The notes beneath the pieces were generated by a model, which saw only the letters and a list, made by a program, of their open reading frames with translations, ran no database searches and was not told the origin of the DNA. The translations under genes were made by a program, and so were the position numbers. Below, one piece after another: positions 894-8,360 of a stretch of 47,632 nt of DNA (position 1 is its first letter; each line of letters starts with the position of its first letter). The DNA comes from a virus. The stretch is from positions 1-47,632 of IMG/VR virus record IMGVR_UViG_3300034418_007362; one strand, written 5' to 3'.

Positions 894-1073
894 TCAGTAA
901 GAATAAGTTGAAAGATTGCAAGCAGGAACGTGATAACCATTTTTGGGTTGATTTACATCATAAACCCAGATAAGTTCACGATCACTTGCTTTGTAAGTTG
1001 TGAATCCAAACATGGGAACCAACTTAACCATCAGAGCACCCCAGTGATACTCTGTCTCAAAGTCAAAAATCAT
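894..1073 (-). CDS. Small hypothetical protein (59 aa)
   Basis: This 59-aa frame starts MIFDFETEYHWGALMVKLVP and ends CNLSTYSY. Its ATG at 1073 overlaps the TGA of the winged-helix gene upstream (ATGA), and its TGA at 894 is followed after one base by the next ATG. Such exact tiling on both sides supports expression. It has many aromatic residues and no obvious membrane span. Function unknown. Confidence 0.55.
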   Translation of the reverse strand: MIFDFETEYHWGALMVKLVPMFGFTTYKASDRELIWVYDVNQPKNGYHVPACNLSTYSY

Positions 1074-1291
1074 GTGAATGAATAAGTGCCTTTATTGTCA
1101 ACAAAAGTTAAAAAACCTTCATCACGAAGTTGTTGCAAGTTTTCTCGGATTGATGCCCTGATAGTATTATTATTTGGATAATAATAAGACATTGGTCCTT
1201 CAGAAATTTGATAAACTTCGGATAAAGTAAATTGTTTGTTTGTTTCAAACACACAAGAAAGAACTTTAAATAACTTTGATCGAAAATTCAT
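1070..1291 (-). CDS. Stand-alone winged-helix protein like the DpnI C-terminal domain
   Basis: A 73-aa protein that consists almost wholly of a winged helix-turn-helix: FTLSEVYQIS, then YPNNNTIRASIRENLQQLRDEGF, then the wing LTFVDNKGTYSF. This pattern resembles the Dam-replacing/DpnI C-terminal winged helix, which in DpnI binds methylated GATC and is normally fused to a PD-(D/E)XK nuclease. Here no nuclease domain is attached. The start follows the repeated early promoter-leader module (GTATATTAAAAGAGTCAAAC...CACC-ATG). It could be a DNA-binding regulator, a methylation reader or a specificity subunit; the role is inference. The gene overlaps the next one by ATGA. Confidence 0.65.
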   Translation of the reverse strand: MNFRSKLFKVLSCVFETNKQFTLSEVYQISEGPMSYYYPNNNTIRASIRENLQQLRDEGFLTFVDNKGTYSFT

Positions 1292-1323
1292 GGTGTTGTT
1301 TGTTTGACTCTTTTAATATACAC
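1292..1323 (-). promoter_or_regulatory. Early promoter-leader module, copy 2
   Basis: The minus strand reads GTATATTAAAAGAGTCAAA followed by CAAACAACACC and the ATG of the winged-helix gene. It is nearly identical to the copies at 3937-3967 and 6698-6727. Upstream lies a hairpin (about 1336-1372) in which TGTGCC-AGTTGG pairs with CCAA-CCGGCACA, possibly terminating the preceding transcript. Confidence 0.65.
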
Positions 1324-1376
1324 GGAATCGGTGCTTTGTGCCGGTTTGGTGGGCACCTTGCCAACTGGCACACACC

Positions 1377-1529
1377 TCACATAACTGGATGAGTTTCAAT
1401 GTTAAAACATCCCTGAGTTTTGATGTGTCTTTCCCAATGAATTGCGTCCCTTGCATCATAAAAAATTGCTTCCTGTTGAGCATAACCTTTCTTTTTAGGT
1501 TTCTGATACACAACCTTAAATTTTATCAT
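1377..1529 (-). CDS. Small basic hypothetical protein (50 aa)
   Basis: A 50-aa protein starting MIKFKVVYQKPKKKGYAQQE, with a basic first half followed by FYDARDAIHWERHI. The ATG at 1529 lies inside the last codons of the upstream gene (AGTATGATAAAATTTAA read in two frames), so coupled translation is likely. It has the look of a small beta-alpha nucleic-acid-binding fold, but that is only a guess. Function unknown. Confidence 0.5.
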   Translation of the reverse strand: MIKFKVVYQKPKKKGYAQQEAIFYDARDAIHWERHIKTQGCFNIETHPVM

Positions 1530-1752
1530 ACTTTGAATTCCTCTTTTTAACAAAAACGAGTTCATCCCAGTTCATCCGAAAACAACAAACAAGACAATGA
1601 ACTTTGCGGTGAAACTTAACATGATTATCAGGTTTTGGTTTCACTGAAATCTCAATGGTTAGATAAACATTCTTTTCATCAATGTAGTAAATCCAACCTT
1701 CAAGATCTTTCCACTTCACATAATCATCAACCTTTGGTTTGTAAGACATCAC
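1516..1752 (-). CDS. Small hypothetical protein (78 aa)
   Basis: A 78-aa beta-rich protein with a YKPKVDDYVKWKDLEGWIYY start that reads like a small SH3-like barrel (binding-surface aromatics, 'GWIYYIDEKNVYLTIEI'). The start (ATG-ATG at 1752/1749) lies 5 nt after the stop of the preceding 55-aa gene. The pair, together with the next 50-aa gene, forms a small operon behind the sigma-70-like promoter at 1951-1979. Function unknown. Confidence 0.6.
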   Translation of the reverse strand: MMSYKPKVDDYVKWKDLEGWIYYIDEKNVYLTIEISVKPKPDNHVKFHRKVHCLVCCFRMNWDELVFVKKRNSKYDKI

Positions 1753-1757
1753 AACTA

Positions 1758-1925
1758 TCAGAGGTCATGTTCAAATGTTCCACTTTCAAACTTCTCTTGA
1801 AGGTCTTCAAGAATGTCGATTGAAACATAATCATCAACGTCTTTACATGCATCATGATATTTGTCAATCATTTCCCATAGAAGATCATTTTCTTCTTCAT
1901 TGAGATCGACAACAACTCTTTTCAT
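1758..1925 (-). CDS. Small acidic hypothetical protein (55 aa)
   Basis: A 55-aa acidic protein starting MKRVVVDLNEEENDLLWEM and ending FESGTFEHDL. It is probably helical and has no Cys pair or membrane span. It begins 26 nt downstream of a good sigma-70-like promoter and is followed after 5 nt by the next gene, so it is the first gene of a three-gene unit. Function unknown. Confidence 0.55.
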   Translation of the reverse strand: MKRVVVDLNEEENDLLWEMIDKYHDACKDVDDYVSIDILEDLQEKFESGTFEHDL

Positions 1926-1950
1926 TGGTTCATTCAGTGTTTACTTTGTT

Positions 1951-1979
1951 ATTTTATACAAGTTGAGCATTTAAGTCAA
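1951..1979 (-). promoter_or_regulatory. Sigma-70-like promoter
   Basis: On the minus strand a TTGACT -35 box (1979-1974) is separated by 17 nt from a TAAAAT -10 box (1956-1951). It lies 26 nt upstream of the ATG at 1925. The form fits host sigma-70 recognition as used by early phage genes. Confidence 0.5.
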
Positions 1980-1990
1980 CCAGGAGATTT

Positions 1991-2080
1991 TCAGGAAACT
2001 GGGGGAGATCGGTCAGTCTCAACGGTCTCATCGATGAGATCCCTTGGTATCACTAGAGCAGAAACCTGTTTTTCTTGCAT
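1991..2080 (-). CDS. Possible 29-aa peptide
   Basis: An ATG at 2080 opens a 29-codon frame, MQEKQVSALVIPRDLIDETV..., ending at 1991. It occupies an otherwise gene-free gap between the 95-aa gene and the promoter at 1951-1979. It also contains the 12-bp palindrome CTCATCGATGAG (2028-2039). There is no clear ribosome binding site, so it may be chance. Nothing else is seen in the gap. Confidence 0.25.
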   Translation of the reverse strand: MQEKQVSALVIPRDLIDETVETDRSPPVS

Positions 2081-2137
2081 TTTTATCCGTCAGACCCTAT
2101 TGGGCATGATCCCAGACAAAAGCATGGAAAAACCAGT

Positions 2138-2425
2138 TTATCTAAACAACTGCATCTCTAGTGGGTTTAGATTTAATTGCATTGCAGTATATGGAGTTGT
2201 ATTCTCTACGTTCACCTTATTTCCGCACTTGGTGGCATTGATAGGCGCATAATACTCTCCTTTCTTTCCATTGAAGAAACCCCAGATTGACTTTGGAGTC
2301 TCACTTGTATAAGAAAAGATGCCATGATTGCAGATCCAGATAGAAATGCAATTACGCTTGAACTGTCTAACTTCATAGGAGAAACCTTTGGGTGGTTGAT
2401 GAGGGAAATCAGGTGGAAGTTCCAT
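2138..2425 (-). CDS. Hypothetical protein (95 aa)
   Basis: A 95-aa protein with a Pro-rich start (ELPPDFPHQPPKGF) and aromatic, beta-looking segments (SIWICNHGIFSYTSE, SIWGFFNGKKGEYYAPIN). Its ATG at 2425 lies inside the 3' end of the 55-aa gene upstream, a 17-nt overlap suggesting coupling. I do not recognise the family. Confidence 0.6.
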   Translation of the reverse strand: MELPPDFPHQPPKGFSYEVRQFKRNCISIWICNHGIFSYTSETPKSIWGFFNGKKGEYYAPINATKCGNKVNVENTTPYTAMQLNLNPLEMQLFR

Positions 2426-2576
2426 TTACATTTAACTTATTAAGTTCTCTTTCTAATTCACATTTCACTGTGATGAGTTTGTTGTAGATATAATCCCTAT
2501 ATTCGAGGTTTTCAGTGAGTTCGGTAATTCCGTCAACATGTTGCAAAGCAAGGGTAAGTTGCTGTCGTTTGTCCAT
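2409..2576 (-). CDS. Small helical hypothetical protein (55 aa)
   Basis: A 55-aa protein, MDKRQQLTLALQHVDGITEL..., with heptad-like spacing of Leu/Ile and charged residues (ELTENLEYRDYIYNKLITVK), so a short coiled coil is likely. It overlaps the start of the 95-aa gene downstream by 17 nt. Function unknown. Confidence 0.5.
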   Translation of the reverse strand: MDKRQQLTLALQHVDGITELTENLEYRDYIYNKLITVKCELERELNKLNVNGTST

Positions 2577-2618
2577 TGATAATACTCCAAGACATCTTGA
2601 TAAGAACAGGGTGGATTA

Positions 2619-2966
2619 CTAATCATTTTCAGTCACTACCTTATAAATCCAATAAATCAACCCAATAATACCCAATATGAGAATAATGGGCCAAAAAGTT
2701 ACAAAAATCCATGCACCAAGAATAAACAAACAAAGAGCAGCAATTCCACCTAAGTCATAATCTCCACCACCACCATCTTGAGAATTAAATGATGATGAAG
2801 AAGAAGAACTTTCTTCATTGATTAGAAAAACACGTTGAACTTCATGCTCTTCAACACCTTCACGTCGCGCAATGATCTCTTTTGCAGCAAATACATTTGC
2901 CGCATTAGTTTCAACTTGATAAGGATGTTCTCCAGAAACCCAGACTTGTGCTTCAAAACGTGGCAT
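2619..2966 (-). CDS. Membrane protein with C-terminal hydrophobic hairpin (115 aa)
   Basis: The first half is soluble (MPRFEAQVWVSGEHPYQVET..., AKEIIARREGVEEHEVQ). A Ser-rich and Gly-rich linker (SSSSSSSFN, DGGGGDYD) follows, then two adjacent hydrophobic segments at about residues 73-90 and 92-109. The topology suggests an inner-membrane protein with a cytoplasmic N-terminal domain. It may alter the host envelope or sense infection, but nothing in the sequence fixes a role. Confidence 0.65.
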   Translation of the reverse strand: MPRFEAQVWVSGEHPYQVETNAANVFAAKEIIARREGVEEHEVQRVFLINEESSSSSSSFNSQDGGGGDYDLGGIAALCLFILGAWIFVTFWPIILILGIIGLIYWIYKVVTEND

Positions 2967-2997
2967 AATGAAAGTAATTGAGAATCAGTAGTCAGTG

Positions 2998-3192
2998 TCA
3001 ATTGAGATTTGCTCCGTTTTCTTTCGCTTTCTCTTTGATGAAAGAAAAGAGCATGTCTTCATTCATCTCAAATTGTTCAACATACATACAAATTTCATCA
3101 AATGACATTCCAACATCATCAGCATCAATCATGAATGTGTTGTAGAGATCCTGAAGAATGTCGGCAAGGTATTCGAGTTGAATAGGTTCCAT
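2998..3192 (-). CDS. Small acidic hypothetical protein (64 aa)
   Basis: A 64-aa, strongly acidic, all-helical-looking protein (EYLADILQDLYNTFMIDADDVGMSFDEIC). The spacing of acidic residues in DADDVGMSFDE is faintly EF-hand-like but does not match the canonical loop, so I do not call calcium binding. It lies 31 nt upstream of the membrane-protein gene. Function unknown. Confidence 0.6.
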   Translation of the reverse strand: MEPIQLEYLADILQDLYNTFMIDADDVGMSFDEICMYVEQFEMNEDMLFSFIKEKAKENGANLN

Positions 3193-3231
3193 CAGAAAAT
3201 GTGGGTGAAATGTTTGTGTGTTGTTTTTGAT

Positions 3232-3603
3232 TCAGTTGAGATAGAGATAACCGCCTGCCCAATCTGCACGCTCAAAGCATTCTTCACGGGATTCAATGAT
3301 TAACAGGTTGAAACGTTCATGCTTAGCAGGTGCCTTGAAACTGGCAGGTTTATACACAGAACCAGTTTTCTTATCAACAAAGGCATGAACACTACGAGAA
3401 CCACCACCAGTTTCCATGATGATTTTGTGATACTTACGACCAGATTCAATATAGAACTTGTAAGGATCAGAGTCAGGATACTGTGATGTATAGTCAAGCA
3501 CAAGTGCATCACAAAGCATCAGACAATACTTACGGATGTTGAGTTGAATGTCATTGCGTGCATCTTGAGTTGCAACGTAATCAGAGAAAGTTTGAGTGGT
3601 CAT
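3232..3603 (-). CDS. Hypothetical protein (123 aa)
   Basis: A 123-aa protein beginning MTTQTFSDYVATQDARNDIQ, with a central part (SGRKYHKIIMETGGGSRSVHAFVDKKTGSVYKP) that reads as a small beta-sheet with a Lys-rich loop. I choose the ATG at 3603 because the repeated early promoter-leader module ends there; the frame is open further upstream but that would run through the promoter and a terminator. Function unknown. Confidence 0.65.
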   Translation of the reverse strand: MTTQTFSDYVATQDARNDIQLNIRKYCLMLCDALVLDYTSQYPDSDPYKFYIESGRKYHKIIMETGGGSRSVHAFVDKKTGSVYKPASFKAPAKHERFNLLIIESREECFERADWAGGYLYLN

Positions 3604-3637
3604 GAGTGGTGTTCCTTTGACTTTTATAGAATACATG
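3604..3637 (-). promoter_or_regulatory. Early promoter-leader module, copy 3
   Basis: The minus strand reads ATGTATTCTATAAAAGTC then AAAGGAACACCACTC and the ATG at 3603. It is a slightly diverged copy (one GA lost before GTCAAA) of the module upstream of five other genes. Confidence 0.55.
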
Positions 3638-3661
3638 AAAACAGGGTCAGGAGATGCCCTG
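3638..3661 (-). terminator. Possible intrinsic terminator
   Basis: A CAGGG...CCCTG stem (3661-3657 with 3646-3642) with a 10-nt loop is followed on the minus strand by TTTTC. It overlaps the stop codon of the 95-aa gene and directly precedes the promoter of the next gene. The stem is short, so efficiency is uncertain. Confidence 0.45.
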
Positions 3662-3934
3662 CTGTGCCAGTTCTTCATCTGTAACAAGACCTACATCACG
3701 CAGGTATTCTTTCTTATCAAATAGGATACCATTTGTTTCCATTTTACCATAAGTTTCGTCAAACTCTTTGGACATGCGAACACAACGAAGATTCAAAAGT
3801 GTATTGTAACAAAGTTTGTTCATGTCTTTTGTTTCATCAGCAGGCAACCATGCTTGTGCAACTTCATTAAACTTTTCACCTACAAGTTGTTCCATCAGTG
3901 AGAGTTGTCGTTCAGTCAGATTGACGGTGATCAT
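3647..3934 (-). CDS. Hypothetical protein (95 aa)
   Basis: A 95-aa helical protein beginning MITVNLTERQLSLMEQLVGE, with LRCVRMSKEFDETYGKMET and an acidic tail. It has its own early promoter-leader module and the stop lies in a small terminator-like hairpin, so it appears to be a monocistronic early unit downstream of the methyltransferase. Function unknown. Confidence 0.65.
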   Translation of the reverse strand: MITVNLTERQLSLMEQLVGEKFNEVAQAWLPADETKDMNKLCYNTLLNLRCVRMSKEFDETYGKMETNGILFDKKEYLRDVGLVTDEELAQQGIS

Positions 3935-3936
3935 GA

Positions 3937-3967
3937 TGTCGTTTGCTTTGACTCTTTTAATATACAG
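3937..3967 (-). promoter_or_regulatory. Early promoter-leader module, copy 4
   Basis: The minus strand reads CCTGTATATTAAAAGAGTC then AAAGCAAACGACATC and the ATG at 3934. The stretch CTGACCCTGTTTTC just upstream is shared with copy 3, so the repeat unit extends beyond the promoter itself. Confidence 0.65.
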
Positions 3968-4012
3968 GAAAACAGGGTCAGTGGGGAGGGGGGTGTGCCA
4001 GTTCCTTATTTG

Positions 4013-4867
4013 TCACATAAGTGAGATTCTATTTGTCTTGTAAAGTAGGATTTCTTTTGCTTTTTTAGCAGCAAATCCTTCCTCTGTTTTCTTCCTACGA
4101 CCAGCAGTGTAGGTAATATCAAAGTAATGCACATTCATGGACCTTGATTGATCCTCAAACCAGTCATCATCAGCACGGTTAGCAACAAAAACTAAATTTT
4201 GTGCATCGGCAAAGTCCAGCAGGTCCGTCAGTGCATCATCCCCAAAACCGTTGCCATAATCTGCGAAACTATCACGATACGGAGGATCAAAGAAGAAGAA
4301 ACCGTTAGGATCATTGTTCACAGAATCTTTCCAATCTCCTGTCTTGATAGTTACATTCTGAAGTGCATTGTGCCACCAGTTCAATACATCACGATCATAA
4401 ACTTTGTCCTTTTGATTCAACAATCCAGCAGGAGTTCCATACCTTCCGTTGGTATTCTTATTCAGTTGGTAGATACCATTGAACCCAGTCTTCATCAAAA
4501 AGTATAATGTTGCTGCCTCAAATGTTTTGCTCCATTCTTGATAGTTCCAGGCATGAAGATGACGGGTATCAAAGTAGAACTTTTTACGGTCATCTTTACT
4601 CAGTGGTAGATATTGAGATTCAAGACTATCCAGACGTTGTTGAAACTCAGTCAGATCAGTCTTGATTGCTTTGTAGATATTCACGACATCGGAGTTGATG
4701 TCATTGATCACCACATTCTTTGGTTGATAGGTGTTCATCACATGGACAAACATTGCCCCACCACCAAAGAATGGTTCATAATAAGTTTCGAAGGCAGTGG
4801 GCATAAAAGGTGCATAATGTTTCAGCACCTTTGTCTTACCACCTGCCCAGATAAAGAGAGGTTTCAT
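4013..4867 (-). CDS. D12-class (Dam-like) DNA adenine N6-methyltransferase
   Basis: A 284-aa protein with the order of motifs of the alpha-class Dam family: WAGGK at residues 7-11 (AdoMet side), YYEPFFGGGAMF at 29-40 (motif I), NDIN at 55-58, TGFNGIYQLN around 127-136, and the catalytic DPPY at 194-197. It transfers a methyl group from AdoMet to adenine N6. Dam-family enzymes often act on GATC, but the target here cannot be read from sequence. The ATG overlaps the stop of the ParB-like gene (ATGA), so the two are translationally coupled. An EcoRI-like nuclease gene lies just upstream. It may protect phage DNA from host or phage endonucleases. Confidence 0.9.
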   Translation of the reverse strand: MKPLFIWAGGKTKVLKHYAPFMPTAFETYYEPFFGGGAMFVHVMNTYQPKNVVINDINSDVVNIYKAIKTDLTEFQQRLDSLESQYLPLSKDDRKKFYFDTRHLHAWNYQEWSKTFEAATLYFLMKTGFNGIYQLNKNTNGRYGTPAGLLNQKDKVYDRDVLNWWHNALQNVTIKTGDWKDSVNNDPNGFFFFDPPYRDSFADYGNGFGDDALTDLLDFADAQNLVFVANRADDDWFEDQSRSMNVHYFDITYTAGRRKKTEEGFAAKKAKEILLYKTNRISLM

Positions 4868-5883
4868 TCAGAATCTTCTTCTATTTTATTGTCTGCAGTT
4901 TTAACTTTAGATGGATCTCCTAAACCATAGTTAGCGAGTGTATCTTCTCCTATTGTAGCACCTTCAATCGCACCATATGCAAGAGCAGAACGATACTCAT
5001 TAATAAAACGACGAGCAATCAACACAAACTGAGTATTTCCTGCGGTTTTATCTGCAAGTTCTTTAGGTGATAGTTTATTTGCAATAAGTTCTGATTCGAT
5101 AAAGTTCACTAACCCAGTGCGTCTTAATGTACCTCTATTCAATGAATTTTTGAGATAGATGACAGCAGAGAGACCTCCAATCATTGAACCTTGAAGATCA
5201 ACACTCTTTTTAGTTTTCCACTTACTTTCTGATTTAGTGGAAGTAAGAAGTTGATTGTAATAATCGATTGCTTCTTTTACTGTTGAAAGTTCATAAGTAT
5301 TCACTGCTTGCATCAGTTTAGCATAACCTTTTACAGAAAATCCTTCTGGATGACCAATTTTTTCAACATGAACACCCAGTTCAACTAAAGTATTATGAAC
5401 TTCTAGTGCTTCCTTAACACCAGCAGCAATATCTGTGCGAAGTTGTGCAACTTGACTTACTGCTGTTCGGTTGACATTAACTTCTTTGAATAGTTTTGCC
5501 TCTACTTCTACACATTCTCCGTTATCAGCATTTGGATCATGCTCAAATATTTGTGCTTGCAGTGTCATTGTCTCTGGATTCATGCAGTAAATTGCTGCTA
5601 ATACACTCTCATGTTGTCCATCAACAATAGCATATTTTCCGTCTGGACGACGATAAAGACGTAAAGGACTATAAAGATCAGGATTAAAATGTCCTGCCCC
5701 TTTAATCATACTTTCATTAAGAAGTCGTTGATATTTCTCATCAATATAGAGTTGACTTAACATCACATCTTCGATGTTGGGAAAATCATCTGATTTTATT
5801 TCTTTTCTTATTCCAGCAATACCAAGATTATTTGCAAAGTCCAGCAAGTTTACTAGACAATCATTCTGGGAATCGTAATTCAT
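4864..5883 (-). CDS. ParB/Srx-like domain protein (DGQH motif)
   Basis: A 339-aa protein. Residues about 35-130 fit a ParB N-terminal-like fold: SQLYIDEKYQRLL, then SPLRLYRRPDGKYAIVDGQH (DGQH at 88-91), the position of the DGQHR-type motif of ParB, DndB and related proteins. The rest is helical (SVKGYAKLMQAVNTY, FVLIARRFINEYRSALAYGA) and could bind DNA. Phage ParB-like genes often lie beside methyltransferases, as here, where the stop overlaps the methyltransferase start. A leader hairpin and a TATAAT box lie upstream. Whether it acts as a CTP-binding clamp, nuclease or methylation partner is not known; the arginine usual after DGQH is replaced by Glu. Confidence 0.7.
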   Translation of the reverse strand: MNYDSQNDCLVNLLDFANNLGIAGIRKEIKSDDFPNIEDVMLSQLYIDEKYQRLLNESMIKGAGHFNPDLYSPLRLYRRPDGKYAIVDGQHESVLAAIYCMNPETMTLQAQIFEHDPNADNGECVEVEAKLFKEVNVNRTAVSQVAQLRTDIAAGVKEALEVHNTLVELGVHVEKIGHPEGFSVKGYAKLMQAVNTYELSTVKEAIDYYNQLLTSTKSESKWKTKKSVDLQGSMIGGLSAVIYLKNSLNRGTLRRTGLVNFIESELIANKLSPKELADKTAGNTQFVLIARRFINEYRSALAYGAIEGATIGEDTLANYGLGDPSKVKTADNKIEEDSE

Positions 5884-5902
5884 TTTGTTCTCATTTGTTT
5901 AG

Positions 5903-5945
5903 TGTTGGCAAATGCCATTGCGGCACCAACATACGAATAATTATA
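5903..5945 (-). promoter_or_regulatory. Promoter (-10 TATAAT) and leader hairpin of the ParB-methyltransferase operon
   Basis: TATAAT lies at 5945-5940 on the minus strand. Between it and the ATG at 5883 is an inverted repeat, TGTTGG...CCAACA (5931-5926 with 5908-5903), with a GCC/GGC inner stem. The hairpin could stabilise the transcript or serve as a binding site for autoregulation; this is inference. Confidence 0.45.
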
Positions 5946-5958
5946 CAACTAGTTTGGG

Positions 5959-6135
5959 TCAGTTGTCAACTCTTTCAGTATAAACACGAAGGTTAGTGTG
6001 ACCTTGATCATCAACACCAAGCATTTCAGTTTTGATTGTCCACCCAGGTTTATGTGTGAAAGTTACATCAAGTCCTTTCATTCCTACATGATAATCTTTG
6101 CCATTTGAAACAGTGGTTTCATACAGAGGATTGAG
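5959..6135 (-). pseudogene. C-terminal part of the EcoRI-like endonuclease in the +1 frame
   Basis: This frame has no convincing start of its own: its only ATG (6081) has AGGA immediately against it, and the first part overlaps the nuclease gene. Read as a continuation across the A5 tract (6137-6141), it adds 58 residues, for a total of about 245 aa against 277 in EcoRI. The tail aligns with the EcoRI C-terminus as I recall it: W, K three later, D at +11, T at +15 and LRV at +17 to +19 are shared without gaps. I therefore read it as the lost C-terminus, reached by frameshifting, broken by mutation, or separated by a homopolymer sequencing error. Confidence 0.6.
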
Positions 6136-6697
6136 GAAAAAGAGTATTGATACGTTCACAAATAACTTCAATCATTGTAGCATTGAGAAACTCTTTTGTA
6201 AAGCAATCTGTGTTAAGAAATGCACTGTTGCTACCCGGATTGTACTGGTCGAAACCTTCCAGGTGAGCAACATTCAATGCTTTCACAATTTGTCCATAGG
6301 TAAGTCGTCCCAGAAGTTTATCCCAGAAACGATATGCACCTTCTCCGGTACAAAAAGTGACATAGGAAACGTTGGGATTGATAAGACGGCAGATAAAGTT
6401 ATTCTTAAACCAACGTTCGATAGCATTACCTGCGTCTTGCTGTTTCTTACCTTCAAATACTGCAATCAGCACACCATTGTAGAACCATGCACCACCATCA
6501 GGTTCACATGCACCAATCCCACCAGGAATCTGTTCCTTAGTAAGTTTCTTTTGCAGAGTAAGTTCTGGGTAGATTTTCTTCAGTTCAGCAAAAACACTCT
6601 CTTTCTGATGCTTACATTGCTCATCAAGTTTGCGAGCACGGGCATCAGTTGCAACTGTACCATTCTGGATTCCACCCTTGAACTGATAGTTTTGCAT
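6119..6697 (-). CDS. EcoRI-family type II restriction endonuclease, main part
   Basis: A 192-aa protein with the signature of EcoRI: PDGG (catalytic Asp about 67), VLIAVFEGK (Glu 82, Lys 84; the E-x-K of PD-(D/E)XK) and AGNAIER at 89-95. In EcoRI the AGNAIER segment (Asn141, Glu144, Arg145) contacts the AATT bases of GAATTC. Later parts (SYVTFCTG; CFTKEFLN) also follow EcoRI. Compared with EcoRI, about 24 residues between the E-x-K and AGNAIER are missing and the C-terminus lies in another frame (5959-6135). I choose the ATG at 6697, not 6709, because it sits where the other leader modules place the start. It could restrict competing phages or digest host DNA. Activity is uncertain because of the frame break. 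Confidence 0.8.
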   Translation of the reverse strand: MQNYQFKGGIQNGTVATDARARKLDEQCKHQKESVFAELKKIYPELTLQKKLTKEQIPGGIGACEPDGGAWFYNGVLIAVFEGKKQQDAGNAIERWFKNNFICRLINPNVSYVTFCTGEGAYRFWDKLLGRLTYGQIVKALNVAHLEGFDQYNPGSNSAFLNTDCFTKEFLNATMIEVICERINTLFPQSSV

Positions 6698-6727
6698 GGT
6701 GCTGTTCATTTGACTCTTTTAATATAC
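6698..6727 (-). promoter_or_regulatory. Early promoter-leader module, copy 5
   Basis: The minus strand reads CCTGTATATTAAAAGAGTC then AAATGAACAGCACC and the ATG at 6697 of the EcoRI-like gene. It is almost identical to copies 2 and 4, which indicates co-regulation with the DpnI-C-like winged-helix gene. The ATG within AAATGAAC lies in the conserved leader and is probably not the start. Confidence 0.65.
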
Positions 6728-6730
6728 AGG

Positions 6731-7038: not shown

Positions 7039-7638
7039 CTAGGACACTTCTTTAAGTGGTTTAACTACATTGTGATAATACCATTTGCTATACTCATTTC
7101 TTTTTTCTTTATTTTGTTCCCTGTGCATTTTCCATAAGTCTTTCAGATGTTCTTTGTTTTCCTCTTTGTATTTTTTAATTTTATCTTGATTATTTGCTCT
7201 CCATTCTTTCATATATTCTTTCCGTCTCCCCTTTATTTTTCTTTGATGCTCTCTTTGTCTTTTTCTTTTTGCTTCTCTCTTTTCATCTTCAGTAAAGTAT
7301 TTTTTATTGTGTGGCGGTTTAACTCTATTTTTAGCAGCAATACTTTGTTTCTTTCGTGTTTCATCGGACGTTACATAACCACTAACACCTTCTCCACCAT
7401 CTGTTCGATTATGTAATAAACCCCCGTTTATTTTTTTACCCAGAACATGTATCATATAGATTTCGTGTCTAAAGCTATCCTCCTCGGACATTCTATCTTT
7501 AAGTATTATAATTCTACTCTTATCTTTCGGTCTATTGATACTTCTATTATAGGAATATAAACGGTTTCCACTACCCTTACCAATGTAGTAAGGTGTTCCG
7601 TCCTCACGCAAATAAGCGTAGGTGTAATATTTTTGCAT
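7039..7638 (-). CDS. GIY-YIG homing endonuclease
   Basis: A 199-aa protein. Residues 5-95 form a GIY-YIG domain: YTYAYL at 5-10, YYIGKGSGNR at 17-26 (with the conserved Arg), a Glu in RHEIYMIHVLG and NRTDGGEG as the closing motif. The C-terminal half is very basic and rich in Lys, Glu and Arg (about 105-190) and would bind DNA as a helical segment. Such free-standing enzymes cut a related phage's genome and spread by repair. It lies between two unrelated small genes with no intron visible. A late promoter in the loop of a hairpin that covers the start suggests late-only translation, as in T4 I-TevI. Confidence 0.85.
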   Translation of the reverse strand: MQKYYTYAYLREDGTPYYIGKGSGNRLYSYNRSINRPKDKSRIIILKDRMSEEDSFRHEIYMIHVLGKKINGGLLHNRTDGGEGVSGYVTSDETRKKQSIAAKNRVKPPHNKKYFTEDEKREAKRKRQREHQRKIKGRRKEYMKEWRANNQDKIKKYKEENKEHLKDLWKMHREQNKEKRNEYSKWYYHNVVKPLKEVS

Positions 7639-7737: not shown

Positions 7738-7932
7738 TCATGAGATTGGTCCTTTCTTTTGTTTCTGTTTGAGAGTTTTACTTAACTTTTGAAAGTATGA
7801 TTCAGCAGTGCTCCACTTGGCAAAGGTTTTGCACTGCTTTCCACCATGAATCAGAACATATTTCTGACTCTTACCCTTGGAAATTAATGGTACTATTGCA
7901 ATACCAAGTTTCCAATCAACTAATTCATTCAT
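7738..7932 (-). CDS. Small basic hypothetical protein (64 aa)
   Basis: A 64-aa protein, MNELVDWKLGIAIVPLISKG..., with VLIHGGKQCKTFAKWSTAESYFQKLSKTLK and a Lys/Gln-rich tail. The beta-beta-alpha look resembles small nucleic-acid-binding proteins but the family is not recognised. The ATG at 7932 overlaps the stop of the HNH gene, so the two are co-expressed. Read-through beyond it would produce the sequestered leader of the GIY-YIG gene. Confidence 0.6.
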   Translation of the reverse strand: MNELVDWKLGIAIVPLISKGKSQKYVLIHGGKQCKTFAKWSTAESYFQKLSKTLKQKQKKGPIS

Positions 7933-8360
7933 TGTGTGGGGTCTGTGTGCCTCTGTAAGGTTACCACAACCTTATCACCGATAGATTCCACCTGTGACAC
8001 TCTGTAACCGTCTGCAAGACGATGATAATCGTTGTAACAAACACCTTTAAGTTGGTGGCAAGTTTTACATAAAAGTTGACATTTGTTTGCTTCTTCAATC
8101 AAGACTTCCATATGTTTGTGCATACATTGTCCGATTGTAAAGGACTTATCTGCTCTTACAATATGGTCAAATTGTAAGTCTTCAGTGGTCCCGCATCCGA
8201 CACATTTGCCCCCTAAGTGTTCTATCAGTTGTTGCTTCTTCCTTACTCTAAGTTCTTTAGTAGCAGCATTAATTTTATCCTTATTCTTATTCCTGTATCT
8301 GGTAGATGCTTCTACTGCTCCTCTCCTTGCTGCTTCAGAGGTTTTATCTTTATAGGGCAT
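7929..8360 (-). CDS. HNH endonuclease
   Basis: A 143-aa protein with a basic helical N-terminus (about 1-45, YRNKNKDKINAATKELRVRKK) and an HNH domain: Cys53-x2-Cys56, FDHI with the catalytic His at 66, then LLCKTCH (Cys98, Cys101, His102). The two Cys pairs bind zinc. It is a free-standing nicking or cutting enzyme of the homing type. It sits just downstream of the helicase with its own TATAAT promoter and is coupled to the 64-aa gene. Confidence 0.85.
   Translation of the reverse strand: MPYKDKTSEAARRGAVEASTRYRNKNKDKINAATKELRVRKKQQLIEHLGGKCVGCGTTEDLQFDHIVRADKSFTIGQCMHKHMEVLIEEANKCQLLCKTCHQLKGVCYNDYHRLADGYRVSQVESIGDKVVVTLQRHTDPTQ

Follow-up and report, generated by a model that had tools for sequence, protein, structure and literature searches.

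The window analysed here, the whole 47.6-kb stretch of the IMG/VR virus record IMGVR_UViG_3300034418_007362 to which all coordinates refer, carries two genes that very probably form a phage-encoded Type II restriction-modification (R-M) pair for the palindrome AATT. The DNA and genes of the window resemble those of Synechococcus T4-like phages. The R gene encodes a predicted EcoRI-fold nuclease of 196 amino acids (6119..6709, minus strand), and the M gene a Dam-like adenine methyltransferase of the D12 type with 284 amino acids (4013..4867, minus strand). These genes occur as a pair across many viruses, their products share conserved residues, AATT is depleted in nuclease carriers, and it is lost altogether from three of them. 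A sequence-only reading of the window had proposed a restriction-modification or DNA-marking system of four genes, adding to these two a ParB-like protein with a DGQH motif and a stand-alone DpnI-C-like winged helix. All four open reading frames are present on the minus strand at the positions it gave. Restriction-modification appears to hold for the nuclease and D12 methyltransferase, which travel together; the winged helix is judged not to belong to it and the ParB-like gene is optional. Independent variation applies to two of the four genes and not to the pair.

To trace the pair, 50,697 phage records were searched by tblastn for the nuclease, Dam and the winged helix. The nuclease was found in 65 records, every one of them bearing the name of a Synechococcus phage, and 64 records contain a Dam of 60-80% identity, the two lists being counted separately. 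Two pattern scans of IMG/VR yielded 57 nuclease loci. Dam is next downstream of the nuclease in 44 of them: directly in 29, after one intervening gene in 14, and in L008, whose contig stops 71 bases past the nuclease, inside Dam. The direct neighbours overlap by ATGA in 16 of 29 cases, and in L054 nuclease and Dam are fused in frame into one reading frame of 472 amino acids. No Dam is visible in the other 13 loci. Adjacent and co-inherited nuclease and methyltransferase genes characterize Type II R-M systems, and the architecture observed here is of that type. Among isolates, S-BM1 and S-RIM2 KX349259 have nuclease and Dam genes that share 4 bases, while a ParB-like gene lies between them in S-RIM2 HQ317292 and a different gene in KX349231. 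In S-CREM2 the nuclease, annotated by the depositors as 'restriction endonuclease EcoRI', is followed by two genes and then by a different Dam. The combination of an EcoRI-type nuclease with a D12 methyltransferase had been expected from the sequence to be novel; it is unusual, as EcoRI's own methyltransferase partner belongs to another family.

One locus shows a Dam in other company. In L147 (6361-8079) a Dam 94% identical to that of the window is preceded by an unrelated gene of 288 amino acids which is not an EcoRI-like nuclease and weakly matches a Type II restriction endonuclease model (PADLOC PDLC03428, E 0.0047). The observed/expected ratio of AATT in this locus, 0.83, is at control level. 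A swap of the nuclease partner is possible.

The nuclease probably starts at 6697, as first placed, which gives 192 amino acids; the length of its relatives is mostly 172-196. Profile search assigns it to PHROG 2400 (7.1e-95), a family without an assigned function. Its description as EcoRI-like is borne out by fold and not by sequence: Pfam EcoRI gave E 0.2 and 11.2 bits, below the curated cut-off of 22, and matched 3 of 33 nuclease members at E <= 1, the best at 0.029. As modelled, the nuclease has the EcoRI fold. The model was produced with AlphaFold2 from 41 aligned sequences (pLDDT, the predicted local confidence, 86.8), and VIA-align was run over its Foldseek candidates. Five EcoRI entries rank first (Z 15.0-15.5, 167 residues, root-mean-square deviation 3.5-3.6), followed at a distance by the best row other than EcoRI (Z 9.1) and by MunI (Z 7.8).

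The motifs of the nuclease are P70-D71, E86-x-K88-x-Q90 and G94-N-A-I-E-R99. Residues P70, D71, G73, E86, K88, Q90, G94, N95, A96, E98, R99, K102 and N103 are invariant across the 41 sequences, I97 is nearly so, and these residues are candidates for the active site and for recognition. The stretches EGKKQ/EAKHQ and GNAIERxxKN are presumed to match EcoRI one to one, and N95, A96, R99 and Q90 to be the counterparts of EcoRI contact residues. According to PMC4081073, main-chain atoms of EcoRI Asn141 and Ala142, together with Arg145, contact the AATT core; titles in its reference list call Glu111, Glu144 and Arg145 essential and describe a critical role of Gln115 at the inner thymidine. Among bacterial genome contigs, 113 stretches fitted the search pattern and none proved a relative of the nuclease by tblastn, with distant relatives liable to escape a pattern scan.

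In the EcoRI group, the GNAxER-type motif reads the AATT core. AATT was for this reason noted as the expected site before any counting. Ratios of observed to expected occurrence were obtained with a second-order Markov model, and the controls were 77 loci surrounding the IMG/VR sequences most closely related to the uvsW of the window, absence of the nuclease being judged within the fetched stretch. The median AATT ratio is 0.38 in the 44 loci with nuclease and Dam vs 0.78 in controls (range 0.46-1.07; Mann-Whitney p 1e-16). With nucleases clustered at 85% identity, both genes occur together in 18 clusters, of which 16 lie under 0.57, the 5th percentile of the controls; L013/L023 (0.68) and L051/L052 (0.82) do not. 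Of the 15 other palindromic tetranucleotides, CGCG and GGCC have counts too low for a per-locus test, and the lowest p values among the remaining 13 belong to GTAC (8e-5), which is commoner in carriers, AGCT (6e-4), which is rarer in them, and TGCA (4e-3). The same trend is seen in whole genomes of four phages with WH7803 as listed host: AATT is at 0.31 and 0.25 in the carriers S-RIM2 and S-BM1, and at 0.78 and 0.88 in the non-carriers S-M1 and S-IOM18, while CCGG is equally low in all four. S-H34, which has no nuclease, shows 0.76. Contigs with nuclease and Dam range widely (G003 0.12, G005 0.25, G004 and G011 0.62, G001 0.69).

AATT is depleted in all ten flank classes of S-RIM2, and the site therefore appears to be 4 bp long. 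Avoidance speaks against a 6-bp site, as in EcoRI or MunI: depletion is independent of flanks, and every AATT is gone in contigs G008, G009 and G010.

These three contigs all carry the nuclease and contain no AATT at all, compared with 340 expected in G008 (111.9 kb), 252 in G009 (80 of 90 kb counted) and 233 in G010 (73.9 kb). No tetranucleotide other than AATT and CCGG is missing from them. Shuffling synonymous codons, done on uncurated six-frame open reading frames of at least 150 codons, predicts 527 AATT (standard deviation 20) in G008 and 369 (standard deviation 14) in G010. No D12 methylase was found in these incomplete contigs by a search positive in control genomes, nor a PF01555 methylase in seven records including them (control positive); the Dam profile A2 gave no match either, in a search that had no positive control.

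The methylase is assigned by Pfam MethyltransfD12 (6.7e-33) and by the Dam profile TIGR00571 (141.4 bits, above the cut-off of 114.85). It shares with Dam and DpnM the D12 family and the DPPY motif, and its best relative in the Protein Data Bank (PDB) is the DpnII methylase 2dpm. It differs from them at the positions of K9, R124 and Y138, the residues with which EcoDam reads GATC. In alignment with EcoDam (2g1p) these are replaced by I6, Q134 and L150, while P134 is retained as P146. Q134 and L150 are invariant in 27 aligned methylases, and the position equivalent to K9 is occupied by I, M or V (T in L054). Because of these replacements, GATC is an unlikely target, as far as the alignment tells. 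We also considered GATC as a site by counting and rejected it, the pooled ratio being 0.69 in loci with nuclease and Dam vs 0.73 in controls (p 0.11). A glutamine reading A where arginine reads G would suit methylation of AATT, which is speculation. A stronger argument than Q134 is that AATT sites persist, by the tens to hundreds, in genomes with nuclease and Dam and are gone from G008-G010. The 47.6 kb of the window contain 392 AATT sites, which would need protection if the nuclease is active. Retention of AATT in the presence of Dam, together with loss of the GATC-reading residues, suggests AATT as the methylase site.

Bacterial relatives of the methylase were also recovered. Dam-type methylases 41-43% identical to it occur in L256 (Klebsiella pneumoniae ATCC 13883) and in L255, L257 and L258 (Actinomycetaceae and relatives). 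All four have Q at the position of EcoDam R124, although the scan pattern required either Q or DPPYRxSF; their specificity may be informative. No nuclease gene was recognised beside seven bacterial Dam relatives (L254-L260) when lists of open reading frames were inspected by eye, without a profile search.

In the proposed mechanism, the nuclease would attack the host chromosome and the DNA of rival phages at unmethylated AATT during infection, and the methylase would mark AATT in the phage's own DNA. Long-established carriers would also lose AATT sites, because protection would be imperfect, and the lineage without a detected methylase would have erased them completely. The ParB-like gene would join later as an exchangeable third component. 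The broader proposal is that cyanophages use AATT as a code for self and non-self: most known carriers would combine the EcoRI-fold nuclease with an AATT methylase derived from Dam, and at least one lineage would have dropped the methylase and purged every AATT, a case of restriction without modification in which immunity lies in the sequence itself. We lean slightly towards it.

Several observations weigh against the AATT pair or its broader extension. Searches of Pfam and PDB by sequence gave no significant link between the nuclease and EcoRI, and plain Foldseek with the nuclease model gave no match at E <= 0.001. The loci are not phylogenetically independent. Pooled loci give almost the same carrier/control ratio for AATT (0.50) and AGCT (0.51), and a lower one for GGCC (0.43); in whole genomes AGCT and GGCC are low in carriers and non-carriers alike (AGCT/GGCC 0.20/0.20 in S-RIM2, 0.22/0.14 in S-BM1, 0.26/0.14 in S-M1, 0.29/0.19 in S-IOM18). 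The non-carrier S-M1 is likewise below its codon shuffles in AATT (886 vs 1202), and S-CREM2, with the nuclease and a different Dam, has 0.64. The window itself is at background level, 0.82, as is the L051/L052 cluster. Site avoidance in bacteria increases with residence time of an R-M system, according to PMC4687349, and a recent arrival in the window lineage might explain the undepleted AATT.

Loci without a detected methylase add further difficulties. The AATT-free contigs G008-G010 represent a single nuclease cluster, which is also devoid of CCGG. A methylase may lie elsewhere in these incomplete genomes, but would leave the erasure of AATT unexplained. The four clusters lacking Dam have AATT ratios of 0.00, 0.29, 0.57 and 0.77. 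Two fragments in which no D12 methylase was found, G006 (23 kb) and G013 (60 kb counted), have 0.73 and 0.66; the G013 nuclease is about 43% identical to that of the window. For these two, either a methylase lies elsewhere, or specificity has changed, or activity is weak. The catalytic motif is intact in the nuclease relatives of G006 and G013 (loci L043 and L055-L062).

The accessory third gene encodes the ParB-like DGQH protein of 339 amino acids (4864..5883, minus strand). Its ATGA overlap with Dam, noted in the sequence-only reading, is present. The protein matches PHROG 2558 (3.1e-51) and, weakly, the ParB-like PHROG 1033 (1.1e-5). A low-confidence model (pLDDT 69.4) gives it a fold of the ParB/sulfiredoxin kind: residues ~35-141 align with ParB, Noc and KorB domains at Z 7.6-8.9 (ParB 8.9) and, within a range of about 7-9, with sulfiredoxin. 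The suggested likeness to DndB found no counterpart among NCBIfam matches at E <= 0.1, where neither a DndB nor a DGQHR profile appeared.

Across the 57 loci, the ParB-like gene is a swappable and optional component. The slot between nuclease and Dam contains a gene of the PHROG 2558 type in 8 loci and one with no BLAST similarity to this type in 6, and it is empty in 29. The other inserts are of a second kind in 5 loci, whose S-RIM2 relative belongs to the weakly ParB-like PHROG 5778, and of a third kind in 1 (PHROG 33124). In L051 the ParB-like gene follows Dam. The history of the junction can be read by comparing the window with L008, whose nuclease is 99% identical and which lacks the ParB-like insert at this point. 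The L008 nuclease ends with ...TCTGTATGAAACCACTGTTTATTTGGGCAGG and reads straight into Dam at the junction ATGAAACCACTGTTTATTTGGGCAGG; that of the window ends with ...TCTGTATGAAACCACTGTTT, after which the two diverge. At the nuclease stop codon the window retains ATGAAACCACTGTTT (6108..6122, minus strand), which matches the opening 15 bases of the L008 Dam gene exactly and differs at 2 of 15 bases from the window's own Dam start, while the intact Dam begins ~1.25 kb further on. A frame of 70 amino acids (5959-6171) crosses this scar. Since the start of a Dam gene is preserved at the nuclease end, adjacency of nuclease and Dam is most likely ancestral and the ParB-like gene a later insert. A DNA-loading or regulatory function is most likely for the ParB-like protein, because its gene is coupled to Dam by ATGA and exchanged for other genes.

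The winged helix (1070..1291, minus strand, 73 amino acids) had been correctly recognised as a stand-alone DpnI-C-like domain (Pfam DpnI_C 1.7e-15, 57.4 bits, cut-off 23). Its frame holds the C-terminal domain of DpnI only, not the catalytic and winged-helix combination. It matches 3 of the 50,697 phage records at E <= 1e-3, none of them a cyanophage, and the IMG/VR pattern scan gave no relative; it was accordingly rejected as a component of the system. The matches in the phage collection include an unannotated faecal phage and a haloarchaeal virus. A 19-mer promoter-leader, said to be shared by the winged-helix and nuclease genes, is real: 4 matches with up to 3 mismatches were obtained vs a shuffle mean of 0.08. 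It is not special to these two genes. Exact copies precede the winged helix (1304-1322), a gene of 95 amino acids with no known family (3948-3966) and the nuclease (6710..6728, minus strand), and looser copies lie ahead of two further genes (317-335 and 3617-3635). As a link between winged helix and nuclease it was therefore dismissed.

Other explanations can be weighed against a Type II pair for AATT. Depletion might be driven by a host AATT restriction enzyme, with the nuclease acting in repair, homing or resolution and Dam being an orphan GATC methylase. Phages commonly avoid host restriction sites (excerpts of PMC6286503), and the absence of CCGG from the four WH7803 phages, with or without the nuclease, demonstrates that avoidance independent of the nuclease exists. 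On this same listed host, however, only nuclease carriers are depleted in AATT; the site was predicted from the EcoRI-type motif ahead of counting; Dam lacks the residues aligned to EcoDam K9, R124 and Y138; and L116, from the same metagenome as L046 and with no nuclease in its 7.3 kb, has an AATT ratio of 1.03. We consider a host enzyme highly improbable as the cause. The four-gene system for marking and reading DNA, with a DndB-like DGQH protein and the winged helix as methyl reader beside nuclease and Dam, has even less to recommend it and is largely refuted. All four genes do lie within 6 kb, the DpnI_C match is real and the same promoter-leader precedes winged helix and nuclease, but searches for the winged helix turned up no relative in cyanophages, the leader also stands ahead of another gene, and no DndB match appeared. 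Of the 57 nuclease loci, some of which are truncated, 48 yielded no ParB-like gene, and a different gene fills the slot in 6.

A selfish R-M cassette, spreading among phages through the cost of losing it and without benefit to them, is unlikely, though it accounts for some features of the locus. Identity is 68% between the nucleases of two cassettes but 90% between their ParB-like proteins (L032), inserts are polymorphic, genes of homing-type endonucleases adjoin, and upstream of the L147 Dam lies another partner. That many lineages have lost AATT strongly, and that the nuclease is retained where no methylase was detected, nevertheless suggests that selection keeps the nuclease itself.

A Type II pair for AATT can be compared with several known systems. 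With the Type IIP group of EcoRI, RsrI, MunI and MluCI, the nuclease shares the modelled EcoRI fold, the PD...ExK motif and the GNAxER-type motif; the site of MluCI is AATT. It differs from this group in being short, in the lack of a significant sequence match, in the implied 4-bp AATT site, in its Dam-type D12 partner and in its phage carrier. EcoRI, MunI and MluCI are named together in excerpts of PMC4081073, and the MunI site is given as CAATTG in those of PMC5896346. R-M systems of chloroviruses (CviAII and others) offer the precedent: they are similarly virus-encoded, with adjacent nuclease and methylase genes and short sites. According to PMC7019647, chlorovirus nucleases are thought to degrade host DNA and, when tested, were not responsible for mutual exclusion; these viruses infect green algae, not bacteria, and package their nucleases in the virion. 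The ParB-like protein may have in common with the CTPase clamps ParB, Noc and KorB its N-terminal part, modelled at low confidence, and differs from them in the DGQH motif and in its position inside an R-M operon.

No publication on a cyanophage R-M system for AATT was found in a search of open-licence literature. The S-CREM2 paper, in its accessible part, names an adenine methylase, does not contain 'EcoRI' and does not call the nuclease a restriction enzyme. New to us are the T4-like cyanophage carrier, the pairing of EcoRI fold and Dam type at a proposed site of 4 bp, AATT, the exchangeable position of the ParB-like gene, and a lineage that seemingly replaces methylation by site erasure. 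If the proposal is true, PHROG 2400 'hypothetical protein' and 'DNA adenine methylase' would become, in dozens of cyanophages, an R-M system with a predicted site, and breakdown of host DNA and exclusion of rivals by these phages would become testable. It would also help to explain the tetranucleotide bias of cyanophages and provide a small enzyme that cleaves AATT together with a methylase for this site. The G008-G010 lineage is a candidate case of a nuclease made safe by erasure of its sites instead of methylation, and a missing palindrome offers a cheap way to spot other nucleases borne by phages.

Other tetranucleotides show patterns of their own. CCGG is wholly absent from S-RIM2, S-BM1, S-M1, S-IOM18, G006, G008, G009, G010 and G013, with or without the AATT nuclease (for instance, 144 are expected in S-RIM2, but only 11 in G006), and is present in S-CREM2, S-H34, G003 and the window. 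Its absence could be due to a host CCGG enzyme (WH7803 is the listed host of the four isolates without CCGG) or to another phage nuclease without methylation. The gene responsible could not be singled out, as 67 of 256 S-M1 open reading frames fit the pattern, too many to interpret. GATC behaves in the reverse manner to AATT, with 0.63 and 0.62 in S-RIM2 and S-BM1 vs 0.20 and 0.35 in the related S-M1 and S-IOM18, which have no AATT nuclease and in which 148 of 756 and 268 of 760 expected GATC are left.

Two genes of the mobile type lie between uvsW and the nuclease in the window, one of the homing-endonuclease kind (7039-7638; PHROG 10829 and 314) and one for an HNH endonuclease (7929-8360). 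Neither was found by tblastn in L008, whose nuclease is 99% identical, and mobile genes appear to favour this part of the window as a hot spot.

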